Below are positions 19,629-26,537 of a DNA stretch of 43,771 nt, one piece after another (within the stretch, counting starts at the first letter, position 1; every line of letters begins with the position of its first letter). The stretch is from NCBI GenBank assembly GCA_021790425.1, contig JAJYEA010000010.1:1-43771 (forward strand), in the 5' to 3' direction. Below the pieces are notes generated by a model. The model ran no database searches. It saw only the letters and a program-made list of their open reading frames with translations, and was not told where the DNA came from. Position numbers and translations under genes: made by a program. This stretch comes from Thermoplasmata archaeon (GTDB lineage Archaea > Thermoplasmatota > Thermoplasmata > Lutacidiplasmatales > UBA184).

Positions 19629-19689
19629 GCGGGACAGGACCGGGGGTCCGGGCTGAGTCGTTAAGTGCGGGGCCGGCGTGGCGCCCGGC

Positions 19690-20121
19690 ATGCCGACCCG
19701 CAAGGGCGCCAAGGGATTCTCGGACGGCGAACGCGCCGCGATCAAGGAGCGCACCCAGGAACAGAAGGTCGTGTGGGGGAAGAACCGGGCGGAGGACGAG
19801 CGGGCCGTGCTCGCCAAGATCGCCACCTTCCCTGAACCGGACCGCGCGATGGCGAAGCGCCTCCACGCAATCATCTCGTCGGCCGCCCCCGATCTCGCTC
19901 CGAGGCTCTGGTACGGGATGCCCGCCTACACCCGGGAGGGCGACGTGCTCTGCTTCTTCCAGCCGGCCTCGAAGTTCCAGGCGCGGTACGGGACGCTCGG
20001 GTTCAACGATGGGGCGAAGTTGGACGAGGGCGGCATGTGGCCGACCGGATTCGCGCTGAAGGAGCTGACCGCCACCGAAGAGGCCCGGATCAGCGCCCTC
20101 GTGAAGAAGGCGGTGCGCTGA
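19690..20121 (+). CDS. DUF1801 (YdhG-like) protein
   Basis: A 143-residue YdhG/DUF1801-type protein. The hallmark [33 protein letters not shown] region (about residues 76-108) contains the family YGMPAY and the later phenylalanine-rich strand. A basic N-terminal 20 residues and a helical [18 protein letters not shown] precede it. The molecular function of the family is unknown. The ATG at 19690 is preferred over the upstream GTG at 19678 because gtcgttaagt (about 19658-19667) is centred 26-27 bases before it. Confidence 0.78.
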
Positions 20122-20132
20122 GGGGAAGGACG

Positions 20133-20549
20133 GTGTCCGGTCCGCAACGGAAGGGCAAGCCCTCCCCCCCACGGGCCCGCGGGCAGGACCCGGCCACGAA
20201 GGACTGGCGGGTCGCGACGATGTCCCGGCTACGGGGCGTGATCCGGAAGGCGGACCCGGCCGCGGTCGAGGAAGTGAAGTGGCGAAAGCCCAGCCGGCCC
20301 GAGGGAGTTCCGGTCTGGTCCCATGACGGGATGATCTGCGTCGGGGACACCCTCAAGTCGGCCGTCCGCCTGACCTTCCCGAAGGGCGCCCGGTTGCGGG
20401 ACCCCGCGGGGCTCTTCAACACGAGGATGGACAGCAAGACGGTGCGCGCCATCGATTTCCACGAGGTCGACCCGATCGATGAACCCGCCCTCGCGGACCT
20501 CGTCCGGGAGGCGGCCGCCCTGAACTCCTCCACGGTGAAGCACCGGTAG
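20133..20549 (+). CDS. Second DUF1801-like protein
   Basis: A 138-residue protein of the same broad fold as its upstream neighbour: VEEVKWRKPSRPEGVPVWSHDGMICVGDTLKSAVRLTFPKGARL gives the family strand pattern (VKWRKPS.. in place of YGMPAY), then the helix ALADLVREAAAL. A basic, proline-rich N-terminus of about 30 residues precedes the domain. It follows the first gene after 11 bases, with a purine-rich ggggaagga before the GTG at 20133. The two are probably an old tandem duplication and one transcription unit. Function unknown. Confidence 0.75.
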   Translation: MSGPQRKGKPSPPRARGQDPATKDWRVATMSRLRGVIRKADPAAVEEVKWRKPSRPEGVPVWSHDGMICVGDTLKSAVRLTFPKGARLRDPAGLFNTRMDSKTVRAIDFHEVDPIDEPALADLVREAAALNSSTVKHR

Positions 20550-20624: not shown

Positions 20625-20981
20625 TCACTCCTTGGCGGGGGCGGGGGGATGGTTCCGGTAGAGGCCCCACGCGAAGCCGGTGTGGAGGCACTCCGTGGTG
20701 TGGCAGTACCCGCAGAACATCTCCCCGTTCCGGAAATCGACGTCCACGAGGCGCTTCAACTTCGCGTCCTGGATGCGGATGACGTTCTCGAACATGTTGA
20801 AATGTTTGAGGCGTGTCTTCTGCTGCTCCTGGAGGTGGCGCGCGACGATGCGCGTCACGTACGCCGTCAGGCTGGGCACCCCCTCGCGGGCCAGGACCTC
20901 GCGCTCCCGCGCGTAGGCCTCCTCCAGCTCGCGGTAGGTCTCCTCCTTGATCGTGACCGACTTGAAACCCGCGCGTGGCAT
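20625..20981 (-). CDS. Ribbon-helix-helix-like regulator with C-terminal Cys/His cluster
   Basis: A 118-residue protein. The start GFKSVTIKEETYRELEEAYA, with a later PSLTAYVTRIVARHLQE, fits the strand-helix-helix of a MetJ/Arc-type ribbon-helix-helix DNA-binding dimer, with an unusually long inter-helix stretch. A second part, FRNGEMFCGYCHTTECLHTGFAW (about residues 90-112), has Cys-x2-Cys, Cys-x-His spacing that could bind zinc or another metal, or act as a redox switch. It is transcribed divergently from the mutasome-like operon, and the GTAC repeats (20991-21005) lie between its TATA box and its start codon, the usual place for autorepression. Control of the operon is inferred. Confidence 0.65.
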   Translation of the reverse strand: MPRAGFKSVTIKEETYRELEEAYAREREVLAREGVPSLTAYVTRIVARHLQEQQKTRLKHFNMFENVIRIQDAKLKRLVDVDFRNGEMFCGYCHTTECLHTGFAWGLYRNHPPAPAKE

Positions 20982-20990
20982 CGATGTTCC

Positions 20991-21015
20991 GTACAAGTAC
21001 AGTACACTATTATAC
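20991..21015. promoter_or_regulatory. Shared divergent promoter with GTAC operator-like repeats
   Basis: The sequence gtacaagtacagtac (20991-21005) holds three GTAC cores, next to ctattatacc (21008-21017). Read on the minus strand the latter is ggtataatag, placed about 30 bases before the regulator start at 20981. Read on the plus strand tattata is centred about 30 bases before GTG 21040 and 39 before ATG 21049. A single AT-rich box may therefore serve both directions, and the GTAC repeats sit over the predicted start of the regulator transcript. Operator function is inferred. Confidence 0.5.
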
Positions 21016-21048
21016 CTTGCGCACCTAGTGAGCTCTTGGGTGACCCGG

Positions 21049-21705
21049 ATGCCCACCTTGCTCCTCTCCACCGGCCTGAGCGCCCTCGATGAGCTGGTGG
21101 GCGAGACCGACTTCCTCGAGTTCTTCGGGAAGTGGGACACCGTGAACCTCCTCGCCCACCGCTTCATCGTGGAGCACTCGGGCGAGGTCGAGGTGCTGCT
21201 GACCCAGAACTTCGGGGCCTTCGACACGTACCTCCTCCGCCGCATGGGCAAGAACCTCGGAAAGCGCCCCGAGGCGGAGATCGCCCGCGCCTTCAGCCTC
21301 CCCTCCACGGTCGAGCTCCTCGAGGGGGCGCTCTCCTCGGATGCCCCGGTCGCCGCCGTGGTCGACCCCTACCTCTTCGCACCCTCCGACTGGCGGAGCT
21401 ACCATCTCCTCACGCCGATCACCGCGGCCCTCCGCCACTTGGCCCATACAAAACCGGTCGTCGTCTTCAACCGGGTGACCCAGTTCGGGAAGAACGTCCC
21501 CGAGGGAGGGGAGTACCATCTCCACACGGTGCCCGTGCTCGTGGAGGTCTCGGCCACCCCGAAGGCGATGCTCGCCTGCCTGATCAAGCACCCGGCGAGC
21601 CCCGCCCGCCGGGTCTGGCTCCCCTATCCCGAGATCTACGGCGAGCGCGTCGGCCGTACCGGGGTCCAGCGCGCCCTCACCGAATGGGGAGGTGCCGTGG
21701 CATGA
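21049..21705 (+). CDS. RecA/RadB-like protein lacking Walker A (ImuA-like)
   Basis: A 218-residue protein that follows the RadB/RecA core layout but is degenerate. LSTGLSALDELVGETDFLEFFGKWDTVNLLAHRFI aligns with the start of RadA-type cores, yet the GxxxxGKT loop is replaced by FFGKWDTVNL (25-34), so ATP binding is doubtful. VAAVVDPYLF (101-110) occupies the Walker B position, and VLVEVSATPKAMLACLIKHPASPARRV matches the C-terminal strands. In-frame GTGs at 21028 and 21040 are alternative starts. It is the first gene of the PolB2 operon; bacterial ImuA is likewise a RecA-fold protein paired with an error-prone polymerase. The ImuA comparison is by analogy. Confidence 0.65.
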   Translation: MPTLLLSTGLSALDELVGETDFLEFFGKWDTVNLLAHRFIVEHSGEVEVLLTQNFGAFDTYLLRRMGKNLGKRPEAEIARAFSLPSTVELLEGALSSDAPVAAVVDPYLFAPSDWRSYHLLTPITAALRHLAHTKPVVVFNRVTQFGKNVPEGGEYHLHTVPVLVEVSATPKAMLACLIKHPASPARRVWLPYPEIYGERVGRTGVQRALTEWGGAVA

Positions 21706-22340
21706 GCGGGACCGCGGTCCGGATCGGGAGCGGGGGCTGGTGGACCTTCCCGGGAGGGCTGGCCCGGTACGCCCGCCATTTCGATTTCGTGGAGCTCAAT
21801 GCCAGCTACTACCGCCTTCCCACCCGGGAGCAGGCGCTCCGGTGGCGGGCCGAGGTCCCGGAGAGCTTCGAGTTCGCGGTCAAGATGCCCCGCGACCGCC
21901 CGAAGGACCCCGCGGACCTCTGGGCGGTCCTCGACGCCCTCGCGGCCCGGTACGTGGTCGTCCACAGCTCGTGCCCGTGGGGAGGGGATGCCCTCGACCT
22001 GCTCCACGATCACGGATACCGTCCCGTCCTCGAGCGGAGGGGACGGCGCCCGGCCGAGGGCCCGCCCCCACCCCGGTGGGTCCGGATCGCGGAGGACCCC
22101 TCCCTCCCCGAGACCCGCCCCCGGGGAGAGGGGGAGGAGCTCTACGCCCGGGTCTTTGGCGCGGAGCGCGGGGTGGCCCATCACCTGGGGAAGGGCATGA
22201 TCGACCGGGTGGCCACGACCGCGACGCGGCGCGCCTCCCCGGCGAAGGGAGAGGTGCGCATCGTGACCCACTCCTACCAGATGTACGATGACGCCGAGCG
22301 GATCCGGCAGGCGATGGAGGAGGCGGGGAGCGATGGGTAG
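21702..22340 (+). CDS. DUF72 family protein, short form
   Basis: A 212-residue DUF72 (YecE-like TIM-barrel) protein. It has the N-terminal RIGSGGWWTFPGG..., HFDFVELNASYYRLPTREQALRW and FEFAVKMPRDRP segments that define the family, but it is about 70 residues shorter than usual and the middle of the barrel is compressed (PAEGPPPPRWVRIAEDP). The biochemical role of DUF72 is unknown; members are often near DNA repair genes. It overlaps the RecA-like gene by ATGA and the next gene by eight bases. Shortening relative to the second DUF72 gene in the operon suggests specialisation. Confidence 0.78.
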   Translation: MSGTAVRIGSGGWWTFPGGLARYARHFDFVELNASYYRLPTREQALRWRAEVPESFEFAVKMPRDRPKDPADLWAVLDALAARYVVVHSSCPWGGDALDLLHDHGYRPVLERRGRRPAEGPPPPRWVRIAEDPSLPETRPRGEGEELYARVFGAERGVAHHLGKGMIDRVATTATRRASPAKGEVRIVTHSYQMYDDAERIRQAMEEAGSDG

Positions 22341-22578
22341 GAGCGTCCCCTCCTTCCGGCAGCAGCTCGACCGGGAGACCGAGCGGCTCCGTCGCCTGGC
22401 CGAGGGTTCCGCGGACCCCCGACGGAAGGCGCTGCTCCTCGAGCTCCTGGAGCACGCCCGGGACCTCGAGAACGAGTTCGCCGTCTCCGGCGGCGATGCG
22501 GCCGAGGAGGTGCTCTTCTCCCTCCTCCTGCATCTCTTTGCCCGGGAGCGGAGCTCCCCGGAACGGACGGGACGATGA
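22333..22578 (+). CDS. Small helical protein of the PolB2 operon, 81 aa
   Basis: I do not recognise this protein. It is predicted by eye to be all-helical: FRQQLDRETERLRRLAEG, PRRKALLLELLEHARDLENEF, and AAEEVLFSLLLHLFARER, the last with regular Leu/Phe spacing suited to a protein interface. Its start at 22333 lies within the end of the DUF72 gene and its stop overlaps the polymerase ATG (ATGA), so it is firmly inside the operon and likely coupled to polymerase translation. A polymerase accessory subunit is a plausible but untested role. Confidence 0.65.
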   Translation: MGRSVPSFRQQLDRETERLRRLAEGSADPRRKALLLELLEHARDLENEFAVSGGDAAEEVLFSLLLHLFARERSSPERTGR

Positions 22579-24626
22579 CCTTCGAGGGCTGGATCCTCGA
22601 CGCCCGTCCGGCGAAGGGAGGGCTCGTCCTCCTCCTCTCCGACGGACGGAAGCGGGTCCGGGTCTGCCTCCGGGCCACCTTCGACCTGTACCTGGTCCCG
22701 AGGGACCCCACGCTGGTCGACCGCCTGATGGACCACCCGGCGGCGGTCTCCTCCCGGGAGGAGGAGTGGTTCGCTCCCCCGTGGTACACCGCGCGTATCC
22801 CGGTGCAGCGGGTCTCCTTCTCCCGGCTCTCGGCGGTGGAGGAGGTGCGGGCCCGAATGAGGGAGGAGGAGCTCGCCGAGGTGCTCAACCCCTTCCCCGA
22901 CCCGATCACGCAGACCTTCTACCACCTCGGCTACCCGGCGACCGCCCGCGTGCGGGTGCAGGGAGCGGTCACCTCCGGCTCCGGCGAGGTCCCCTGCGTC
23001 GACCCGTCGCGGGTCCGGGCGGTCGGGGACCCGCTCGAGGTGGGCTACGAGGTCCCGGGGTACAGCTGGGCGGAGGTCCGCTTCTTCGACTGGTTCGGGG
23101 AGACCACCGCCTCGGAGGCGGGGCGGGCGCCCGAGCGGTTCACCCTCACCGTCTCCTACGCGGGCCATCCCCCGCGCACCGAGGAGGGGAAACTCCGCGA
23201 GCTGGAAGGGCACGCGCCGCTCCTCGCCTCGGTGGACATCGCCATGTTCCCCCGGGCCTTCCGCGGCCTCCTCTCGGGGGCGGGACTCCGGACGTCGGCG
23301 ATCCCGATCGTCCTCCACCGGCACTCGCCCCGCTCCCCGCCCCTCCCCGACGAGCTCGTGAAGTTCGTCGAATGGAGCCGGGTCTCCTTCATGCCCCTGC
23401 GCGAGGTCGCGCAGGCCTCCATCGGCAAGGCCCTCACCGCGAACGAGACGCACGTCGCCTTCCGTCGGCACTACCTCGTCCCCGACCGGCAGGCGCGGGT
23501 GGAACGCCGGAAGACGCTGGCCGACCTCGTGGCCCACGACCGCGGGGGGATCCTCTTCCGTCCCCGGCCGGGGATCTACTGGAACGTCGCCCAGCTCGAC
23601 TTCGCCTCGATGTACCCCACCCTCATCGCGACGTGGAACATCTCCCCCGAGACGGTGAACGCCCCCTCGGGGCCCTCGGTCGAGGTGCCCGGGACGGGCC
23701 ACCGGGTGGAGCCCGCGAGCGCACGACGCGGGATCGTCCCGGAGTCCCTGGAGTGGCTGATCGCCCGCCGGGAGGCGACCCGGGCCCTCGCGCGGGACGA
23801 CCCCGTCCAGGACCTCCGCCAGGCGGCGATCAAGTGGCTCCTCGTGGCGAGCTTCGGCTACCTCGGCTTCCGCAACGCCCGCTTCGGGAAGATCGAGGCC
23901 CACGAGTGCGTCACCGCGCTCTCCCGCCACTACATGGGACGCTCGATCCAGCTCGCGACCTCCCGGGGCTACGAGGTCCTCCACGTCATGGTGGACAGCC
24001 TCTTCGTCCGCCGGGACGGGGCGACCCCCGCGGACTACCAGGCGCTCCTCGCCGCGCTGCGGGAGGAGACGGGGCTCGGGATCAAGCTCGAGGCCCACTA
24101 CGACTGGGTGGTGCTCTGCAACAACAAGGGGACCGCCCTGGGCTCGCCCGCCCGCTACTTCGGGCGGCTGCGCGACGGCCACCTCAAGGTCAAGGGGCTC
24201 GACATCGTCCGTCGCGACACGCCGGGAGTGGTGAAGAAGGCCCAGGCGGAGGCGCTCGCGACCCTGCGCGAGGTCCGGACCGAGGCGGAGCTCCCCGAGG
24301 CGCTCCGGCATGTGGAGGGGCTCTTCGAGCGGGCGGCCTCCCGGGTCCGCCGGGGAGACGTGCCCCCGGAGGAGTTCGTCTTCACCGTGGCCGAGGGACG
24401 GAGGGCGGGCGGGGGGCGGCACGACTACCGGTCGGAGACCCCCTTTGTCTCCCTGGTCCAGGGACACGGGACCCCCTACTTCGCCGAGCTCGGCTTCTCC
24501 GGCGCCGACACGGAGCACTACGCCCGCCTCCTCGAGCGGGCCCGCGAGCAGGTCACCCCGGCGAGCGGGGGCGTACGAGAAGAGCCCCGGAGCTCCTACT
24601 GGGACGTCCATGGAGACGACGGCTGA
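22575..24626 (+). CDS. B-family DNA polymerase, PolB2-like, exonuclease-degenerate
   Basis: A 683-residue family-B polymerase, shorter than replicative PolB. Motif A is DFASMYPTL (D342), motif B AIKWLLVASFGYLGF (K420, with the usual Asn-Ser replaced by Val-Ala), and motif C HVMVDSLFV (D474). In motif C the first Asp of DTDS is Met but the second, metal-binding Asp is kept, so catalysis is feasible. KGLDIVRRDTP (540-550) is the thumb motif. The Exo I site reads VDIAMF (220-225), losing the Glu of DxE, so proofreading is unlikely. These changes match the archaeal PolB2/Dpo2 group, for which damage tolerance has been reported. The ATG overlaps the upstream stop. Confidence 0.85.
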   Translation: MTFEGWILDARPAKGGLVLLLSDGRKRVRVCLRATFDLYLVPRDPTLVDRLMDHPAAVSSREEEWFAPPWYTARIPVQRVSFSRLSAVEEVRARMREEELAEVLNPFPDPITQTFYHLGYPATARVRVQGAVTSGSGEVPCVDPSRVRAVGDPLEVGYEVPGYSWAEVRFFDWFGETTASEAGRAPERFTLTVSYAGHPPRTEEGKLRELEGHAPLLASVDIAMFPRAFRGLLSGAGLRTSAIPIVLHRHSPRSPPLPDELVKFVEWSRVSFMPLREVAQASIGKALTANETHVAFRRHYLVPDRQARVERRKTLADLVAHDRGGILFRPRPGIYWNVAQLDFASMYPTLIATWNISPETVNAPSGPSVEVPGTGHRVEPASARRGIVPESLEWLIARREATRALARDDPVQDLRQAAIKWLLVASFGYLGFRNARFGKIEAHECVTALSRHYMGRSIQLATSRGYEVLHVMVDSLFVRRDGATPADYQALLAALREETGLGIKLEAHYDWVVLCNNKGTALGSPARYFGRLRDGHLKVKGLDIVRRDTPGVVKKAQAEALATLREVRTEAELPEALRHVEGLFERAASRVRRGDVPPEEFVFTVAEGRRAGGGRHDYRSETPFVSLVQGHGTPYFAELGFSGADTEHYARLLERAREQVTPASGGVREEPRSSYWDVHGDDG

Positions 24627-25509
24627 GACCCGCCGGGGCGCTCCCCGCGTCCGCGTGGGGTGCTGCGGCTGGTCGTACCCGGAGTGGGCCGGTCCCTTCT
24701 ACCGGTCGTCCGAGCGGATGTTCACCCAGTACGCGCGCGTCTTCGACACCGCCGAGATCGACAGCTCCTTCTACCGGATCCCGGAGCGGAAGACCATGGA
24801 GGGACTGGCCCGCCAGGCCCCGCGGGACTTCCTCTTCACGGTCAAGCTCCCGCAGGCGCTCACGCACGAGGCGCGCCTCCGCGACACCCCGGGGGCCCGG
24901 ACGGCGCTCGACGCCTACCTCCACGCGATCGAGCCCCTGCGCTCCTCCCACCGGCTCCGGCTCGTGCTCGTCCAGCTTCCCCCGAGCTTCGGGTTCGAGG
25001 AGCGCGGCCCCCTCGAGCGGTTCCTCCGGGAGCTCCGCGACCGCGGCGTGCCGAGCGCGACCGAGTTCCGCCACGCGAGCTGGGTCGCGCCCGAGCACCT
25101 CCCCGACTCGCTCACCCTGCTCCGGGGCGCGGGATCGAGCTACACGATCGTCGACGAGCCGCTCCTGCCGCCGGACACGCACACGACGAACGGGACGGCC
25201 TACGTCCGCCTGCACGGACGGAACCCGGCGCTGTGGTACGACTACGAATACTCGCCCTCGGAGCTCGCGGCCTGGAAGGGGAAGGTCGCCGGGCTGGTCC
25301 GGGACGGGGAGGAGGTCATCGTGGTCTTCAACAACCATCCGCACGGGAACGCCCCGAGGAACGCGATCGCCTTCCGCGAGCTCATCGGCGGCCGGGCGCC
25401 GGCGGGATCCCCCGACCTCGGCTCGTTCGGACCGGAGGCGGACCCGGCCGCCAGGAACGCTTATGGAGCGGGACCTTCTCCCGCCCCCGACCGGGAAGGA
25501 TCACCGTGA
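24610..25509 (+). CDS. DUF72 family protein, full length
   Basis: A 299-residue DUF72 protein of normal length. RVRVGCCGWSYPEWAGPFYR (about 13-32), YARVFDTAEIDSSFYRIPE, FLFTVKLPQALTHE, LVLVQLPPSF, SATEFRHASWV, AYVRLHGRNP and VIVVFNNHPHGNAPRNA are all recognisable family segments of the TIM barrel. The last about 45 residues are Pro/Gly-rich with no domain character. It begins 17 bases inside the polymerase gene end and is followed by a GTGA overlap. Family function is unknown; two DUF72 genes flanking the polymerase is striking. Confidence 0.85.
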   Translation: METTAETRRGAPRVRVGCCGWSYPEWAGPFYRSSERMFTQYARVFDTAEIDSSFYRIPERKTMEGLARQAPRDFLFTVKLPQALTHEARLRDTPGARTALDAYLHAIEPLRSSHRLRLVLVQLPPSFGFEERGPLERFLRELRDRGVPSATEFRHASWVAPEHLPDSLTLLRGAGSSYTIVDEPLLPPDTHTTNGTAYVRLHGRNPALWYDYEYSPSELAAWKGKVAGLVRDGEEVIVVFNNHPHGNAPRNAIAFRELIGGRAPAGSPDLGSFGPEADPAARNAYGAGPSPAPDREGSP

Positions 25510-26537
25510 CCGTCCATATCGCGCTCCTGCGCGCCGTCAACCTGGGCCCCCATCGTCGGGTGGCGAACGAGAGCCTGGTCGAGGTCTGCGAGGGCGCCGG
25601 GCTCTCCGCGGTGGAGACCTATCTCCCCACGGGGAACGTCGTCTTCCAGGACACGGGCCGGGGCCCGATCGCGCTCGAGACCTTGCTGGAGAAGGACCTC
25701 GCGAAGCGCGCCCGCCTGCGCACGGAGGTCTTCGTCCGCTCGGGGTTCGAGTGGGCGACGCTCCTCCAGCAAAACCCCTTCCCCGAGATGGCCGAGGAAG
25801 ACCCCAGCCACCTCGTGGTGGTCTTCCTCAAGCGGGCGCCGAGCCCGGAGGCGGTCGCGAAGCTCCGGGGCTCGCTCCGGGGACCCGAGAAGGCCTCCGT
25901 CTTCGGCGCCCACCTCTTCGTCACTTACCCGAAGGGGATCGCACGCTCCCCCCTCACCCTGGCCCGCATCGAGGGCACCCTCGGGACCCGGGGCACCGCA
26001 CGGAACTGGAACACGGTGGTCGAGCTCGGGCGGAGGGCGGCGGAGGCCGCTCGGGAGGGCCCGGCCGACACCGAGAACGTGCGCGCCGTCGTCCGGACCT
26101 TCCAGCCCGAGGACTACCCGGGGGTCCGCCGGGTGTGGGAGGCCTCCGACATCCATCTCAGCCCCGCGGACTCGCCCGAGGAGCTCGAACGAGCCCTCGA
26201 GCGGGACCCGGACCTCTTCCTCGTGGCCGAGCGCGACGGCGAGACCGTCGGGGCCGTGCTCGGGAGGTTCGACGGCTTCCGGGGGTGGGTCTACCATCTC
26301 GCGGTCGATGCCCGGTTCCGAAGGCAGGGGATCGGCCGCGCGCTCATGGAGGAGGTGGAGCGGCGCCTGACGGACCGCGGATGTCCGAAGGTGAACCTCC
26401 ATGTCGAGGCCGTGAACGAGGAGGTCTCCGCCTTCTACGAGGCGCTCGGCTACGACCGGAAGGACTTCATCTTCATGGGGAAGTGGCTCCGGGAAGACGC
26501 GGCGCCGTCGCGCGCCCGCCAGAACACCTCCCGCTGA
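25506..26537 (+). CDS. DUF1697-GNAT fusion protein
   Basis: A 343-residue two-domain protein. Residues about 1-185 are a DUF1697 domain: HIALLRAVNLGPHRRV, VETYLPTGNVVFQ, TEVFVRSGFEW and FVTYPKGIARSPL. Residues about 195-335 form a GNAT acetyltransferase: VRTFQPEDYPGVRRVW, FLVAERDGETVGAVLG, VDARFRRQGIGRALMEEVE (acetyl-CoA loop), and VNLHVEAVNEEVSAFYEALGY. The GTG start overlaps the DUF72 stop, making this the last gene of the operon; 45 bases separate it from the convergent zinc-ribbon gene. DUF1697 function is unknown. The fusion suggests that the two activities share a substrate or partner. Confidence 0.85.
   Translation: MTVHIALLRAVNLGPHRRVANESLVEVCEGAGLSAVETYLPTGNVVFQDTGRGPIALETLLEKDLAKRARLRTEVFVRSGFEWATLLQQNPFPEMAEEDPSHLVVVFLKRAPSPEAVAKLRGSLRGPEKASVFGAHLFVTYPKGIARSPLTLARIEGTLGTRGTARNWNTVVELGRRAAEAAREGPADTENVRAVVRTFQPEDYPGVRRVWEASDIHLSPADSPEELERALERDPDLFLVAERDGETVGAVLGRFDGFRGWVYHLAVDARFRRQGIGRALMEEVERRLTDRGCPKVNLHVEAVNEEVSAFYEALGYDRKDFIFMGKWLREDAAPSRARQNTSR

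Follow-up and report, generated by a model that had tools for sequence, protein, structure and literature searches.

Archaeal operons that combine the polymerase PolB2 (Dpo2) with iRadA and arCOG07300/PPB2 have already been published as a mutasome (Makarova 2014; Timinskas 2025; PMC4104785, PMC11791011), a predicted heteropentameric complex with a mode of control established for few lineages. Its described hallmarks are three subunits encoded in the canonical order iRadA-PPB2-PolB2, an inactive ATPase, an MGR arm, a substituted motif C and no recognizable exonuclease domain in the polymerase, a DR motif and a C-terminal PIP-like motif on iRadA, while orc1/cdc6 or lexA genes have been reported as neighbors. 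An enrichment of DUF72 genes near polB2 was reported in the same body of work (PMC4104785, PMC11791011). For PolB2 operons adjoining orc genes, Makarova et al. proposed in 2014 a role in replication regulation or alternative origin use, whereas later genetics and biochemistry in Sulfolobus favor translesion extension with damage-inducible expression. The bacterial ImuA-ImuB-DnaE2 and E. coli Pol V mutasomes also unite a RecA-fold protein with a specialized error-prone polymerase, but their polymerases belong to families C and Y and they have no PPB2, the likeness being one of logic only.

The window analyzed here (i.e., the whole stretch of 43,771 nucleotides, from contig JAJYEA010000010.1 of a Thermoplasmata archaeon) contains a related cassette, in which all seven reading frames that a first-pass annotation had placed between 20625 and 26537 were confirmed, with one on the (–) strand and six on the (+) strand. 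The (+) strand genes overlap at every junction (by 4, 8, 4, 17 and 4 bp in gene order). That annotation had read the locus as a mutasome around a PolB2-like polymerase, and had mentioned PolB2 genes with inactive RecA relatives as noted in archaea; both statements are right and already in print (PMC4104785, PMC11791011). The core of the cassette is thus known, while the combination of genes is new.

The iRadA, PPB2 and PolB2 core

The first (+) strand gene (21049–21705) had been described as encoding a RecA fold without Walker A, and this was borne out. RadA in the PDB was matched at 6e-22 by a profile built from 29 iRadA-type proteins, that of the window among them, and the structural model (mean pLDDT of 90.6) found its best PDB matches in RAD51, RadA and Dmc1. 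Walker A is absent from this RadA/Rad51-like core, the P-loop having been replaced (i.e., the ATP-binding motif is lost), and there is no N-terminal domain. The protein ends in a C-terminal QRALTEW (Q207–W213), present in the form QxxLTxW in all four species, that appears to resemble a PCNA-binding (PIP-like) motif.

The putatively helical 81-aa protein (22333–22578, +), which had been put forward as a new member, corresponds to the known partner PPB2 (arCOG07300). In an alignment with 27 PPB2 proteins from many archaea and bacteria, its N-terminal arm had invariant G2 and R3 residues, reading MGRS in the window and MGRT in the congeners. No Pfam family was found for iRadA or for this gene. 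The polymerase gene (22575–24626, +) matched the Pfam family DNA_pol_B only (1.7e-23), with no exonuclease family matched. Its motif C reads VMVDS, in which the first catalytic Asp of DxD is lost, and D322-R323 was invariant across 12 sequences, in agreement with the D(K/R) motif published as a PPB2 contact.

By these sequence features, the jointly encoded iRadA, PPB2 and PolB2 are those of the published PolB2 mutasome. The proposed parallel with ImuA and ImuB/DnaE2 holds as an analogy of logic but fails as membership, since the cassette encodes neither a Y-family ImuB nor a C-family DnaE2 and its polymerase is of the B family. The replication or origin function proposed in 2014 would give the same complex a task other than lesion bypass; no orc gene was identified in the cassette, and together with the Sulfolobus work cited above this makes such a function very unlikely here.

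Two DUF72 genes and the extent of the conserved unit

The cassette differs from the published mutasome by a degenerate DUF72 gene (21702–22340, +) inserted between iRadA and PPB2, and by a full-length DUF72 gene (24610–25509, +) downstream of PolB2. The latter protein matches the DUF72/YecE proteins (PDB 1VPQ, 1VPY and 1ZTV) along its length (Pfam 3.7e-59; PDB relatives 1vpq and 1vpy) and is kept in the congeners. The short protein, in contrast, is without much of the conserved C-terminal half, and its Pfam match (2.8e-17) is confined to the 47 residues 19–65 of its N-terminal part. Compared with 61 DUF72 rows (in a column table with three short sequences, the remaining one of the four being placed in a separate alignment), Gln122 and both Asn of NNH are replaced, neither the TH pair nor the His of HG is retained, and the Lys79 and Glu152 positions are variable. 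Since the Pfam match lies above the cut-off but these conserved residues are replaced or variable, the short protein is homologous to the family and probably catalytically impaired.

Its loss of residues that are invariant in DUF72, its shortening and its restriction to one genus would suit a decaying passenger without a function in the operon. Its position is identical in four species, however, with coupled reading frames, and dN/dS amounts to 0.26 in the closest pair, although it reaches 0.55 for the window/L089 pair, so that the gene seems less constrained than most others in the unit. Mere decay is therefore judged rather improbable, and the gene is better described as a constrained but degenerate paralogue. 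A search of 293 genomes of the phylum and 80 PolB2 loci gave no full-length match to it outside the genus, and within that set of genomes it looks new. Both DUF72 proteins had been announced as new members, a claim that suits the short one but not the full one, as DUF72 near PolB2 had already been reported.

The exact unit of six genes, i.e., the divergent regulator-like gene followed by iRadA, short DUF72, PPB2, PolB2 and DUF72, recurs next to PolB2 in three congeners, represented by the metagenome-assembled genomes YS4.bin60 (G005), YF1.bin117 (G006) and FK3.bin56 (G004), and this recurrence is new. Two outcomes that would have spoken against the first reading, a lack of conservation of these genes beside PolB2 and the absence of a RecA fold from the first gene, did not arise. 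Because six of the seven genes keep their order and orientation in these congeners, the cluster is more than a chance arrangement. A further genome of the genus, covered by two of the searches, yielded no gene of the cassette, which could be due to its incompleteness (64% complete). Most of the window's flanking genes are without a counterpart beside the congener cassettes, the exceptions being matches between large ORFs, and some flanking genes are common to two congeners, in a comparison where the contig of one congener ends too early for its flanks to be seen.

The last (+) strand gene (25506–26537) encodes a genuine DUF1697-GNAT fusion (Pfam DUF1697 5e-33, GNAT 9e-21) that overlaps the operon. 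It had also been proposed as a member, but was dropped and judged to lie outside the conserved unit, a homologue being absent from the congener loci.

Origin of the polymerase

In the other genera of the host family, iRadA and PPB2 accompany a PolB2 of another clade, in a native operon (DUF72-iRadA-PPB2-PolB2) that shares its core with the window cassette. Of the 37 family loci, several of them truncated at contig ends, 18 have a DUF72 gene within about 5 kb upstream on the same strand, and DUF72 also occurs beside PolB2 in several other phyla. The native operon differs from the cassette in its polymerase clade and in the upstream position of its DUF72, which belongs to a clade distinct from that of the cassette; neither a short DUF72 nor a homologue of the regulator-like gene was found in it. 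In other genera of the family, iRadA and PPB2 at first looked fused, but the fusion was discarded as an artefact of stop-to-stop frames, the two being separate overlapping genes. Some peculiarities of other PolB2 loci were recorded as well. A gene for a HEAT-repeat protein follows PolB2 in all three native operons checked (L183 9760–10878, L193 9695–11569 and L201 10045–11493), G068:C153:6950-9781 holds two closely spaced family-type PolB2 matches of opposite orientation, and a PolB2 operon of Nitrososphaerales (L148 1437–6992) is flanked by one DUF72 gene on either side and contains two PPB2-like genes.

The PolB2 of the genus grouped with two acid-site archaea and Marsarchaeota (support of 100/98), and grouping with the host family's own PolB2 was rejected (AU test, p = 1.7e-69). 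Judged by this tree, the PolB2 of the cassette is xenologous and of a Marsarchaeota-like type, a foreign origin that the first reading of the locus had missed and that is new here. Among the cassette genes the tree was built for PolB2 alone, and a shared foreign origin is suggested for the remaining ones; among the aligned sequences from outside the congeners, those of Marsarchaeota were closest to the PPB2 of the cassette. Since the window genome shows two B-family polymerases (the cassette PolB2 and one other), the acquired PolB2 apparently took the place of the family's native operon, as judged from draft genomes. Polymerases of archaeal mutasomes, as this case indicates, can pass between distant lineages. 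The nearest PolB2 outside the congeners (48%) is that of the acid-site archaea FK5.bin12 and YP4.bin50 (L090 and L091, 9995–12010), and no iRadA or PPB2 was recognizable in the DNA fetched around it.

A discrete unit in differing surroundings, with a horizontally acquired PolB2, could also be a selfish or defense element that happens to hold a polymerase. The only defense-library match was nevertheless a homing-endonuclease model aligned to the polymerase, the regulator-like gene and the short DUF72 are without relatives in viral contigs, and PolB2 operons are general in the host family, which renders this explanation extremely improbable. With good confidence, we instead consider the cassette to be a PolB2 translesion-synthesis mutasome with a Marsarchaeota-like polymerase, apparently acquired in place of the family's operon. 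Its nature as a mutasome is argued for by the RadA fold without Walker A, the PPB2 arm, and the PolB2 substitutions and DR pair, by the published triad with its damage induction and translesion role in relatives, and by the order of six genes being kept in three congeners while most flanks differ from those of the window; its acquisition is argued for by the PolB2 clade and the rejected vertical grouping.

The divergent gene, its inverted repeat and the predicted switch

Where orc1/cdc6 or lexA neighbors have been reported for the PolB2 mutasome, the cassette carries a divergent gene for a protein of 118 aa (20625–20981, –), which had been called an RHH/Cys-His regulator. The protein is kept in four species, with invariant Cys/His residues in its C-terminal module (C90, C93, C98 and H100), and was found in 3 of 390 phylum genomes, all of this genus, in addition to the congener G004, with Marsarchaeota covered by the fetched loci. 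Collinear alignment of its N-terminus with RHH domains reached a marginal E-value of 0.009 and involved an insertion in the first helix, and a weak monomer model predicts the order strand-helix-helix. Searches with the protein returned no Pfam RHH match (its one Pfam match being spurious) and no PDB sequence match, and structure search with the weak model returned no fold match. The RHH label is therefore only plausible; this genus-restricted gene looks new, its role as a regulator being putative. A similar Cys/His C-terminal module was also seen in one other, possibly winged-helix, congener protein (L056, G006:C6).

Between the divergent gene and iRadA lies a candidate operator (20985–21004), within which the inverted repeat TTCCGTAC-NN-GTACGGAA (20987–21004) adjoins a TATA-like box, TATTATAC (21008–21015), with a putative promoter role. 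In this divergent promoter, all four species share TGTTCCGTAC, the GTAC core and TATTATAC unchanged. In the three congeners, the full repeat is the top match of each genome, with 0, 1 and 1 mismatches, whereas the copy in the window, altered in its right arm, has two. A genome-wide regulon was considered and rejected, as no site with 0–1 mismatches and one site with two was found outside the promoter in the four genomes. At up to three mismatches, matches numbered 7, 9, 6 and 7 in the four genomes versus 5, 5, 3 and 0 for a reversed-pattern control, so further weaker sites may exist.

The lack of a significant RHH or fold match might mean that the Cys/His protein is a chance neighbor or does not bind DNA, with the repeat being read by another factor. 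This is deemed unlikely, because the gene, its orientation and the intergenic repeat stay together in four species, and because of the marginal collinear RHH alignment. The predicted reading that is most likely is a translesion polymerase that damage would induce and a dedicated local regulator would control, and it is the best explanation in view of DUF72 adjoining PolB2 elsewhere (in the family loci and phyla mentioned above) and of the kept operator-like repeat.

Following published work on relatives, PolB2 would bind iRadA via a Rad51-like interface, and a PPB2 trimer would insert its MGR arm. Tethering to PCNA may fall to iRadA, and the complex would extend primer ends past lesions in an error-prone manner. 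From the present locus, we further propose that the divergent Cys/His protein could bind the inverted repeat and repress both the operon and itself until released by damage or by metal/redox stress, that the full DUF72 protein might act on the lesion or primer end, and that the degenerate one might be a structural partner. A bolder version sees in the Cys/His protein a dedicated repressor that senses metal or redox state and forms a one-operon switch without LexA or Orc1, and in the active and degenerate DUF72 proteins an asymmetric TIM-barrel pair of true polymerase-complex subunits; it is put forward as a doubtful possibility. The cassette offers a compact candidate switch of one protein and one inverted repeat, and two DUF72 genes inside the operon would make the unexplained link between DUF72 and PolB2 directly testable. 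Just beyond the regulator-like gene, two mutually adjacent DUF1801 genes were observed at 19678–20549 of the window.
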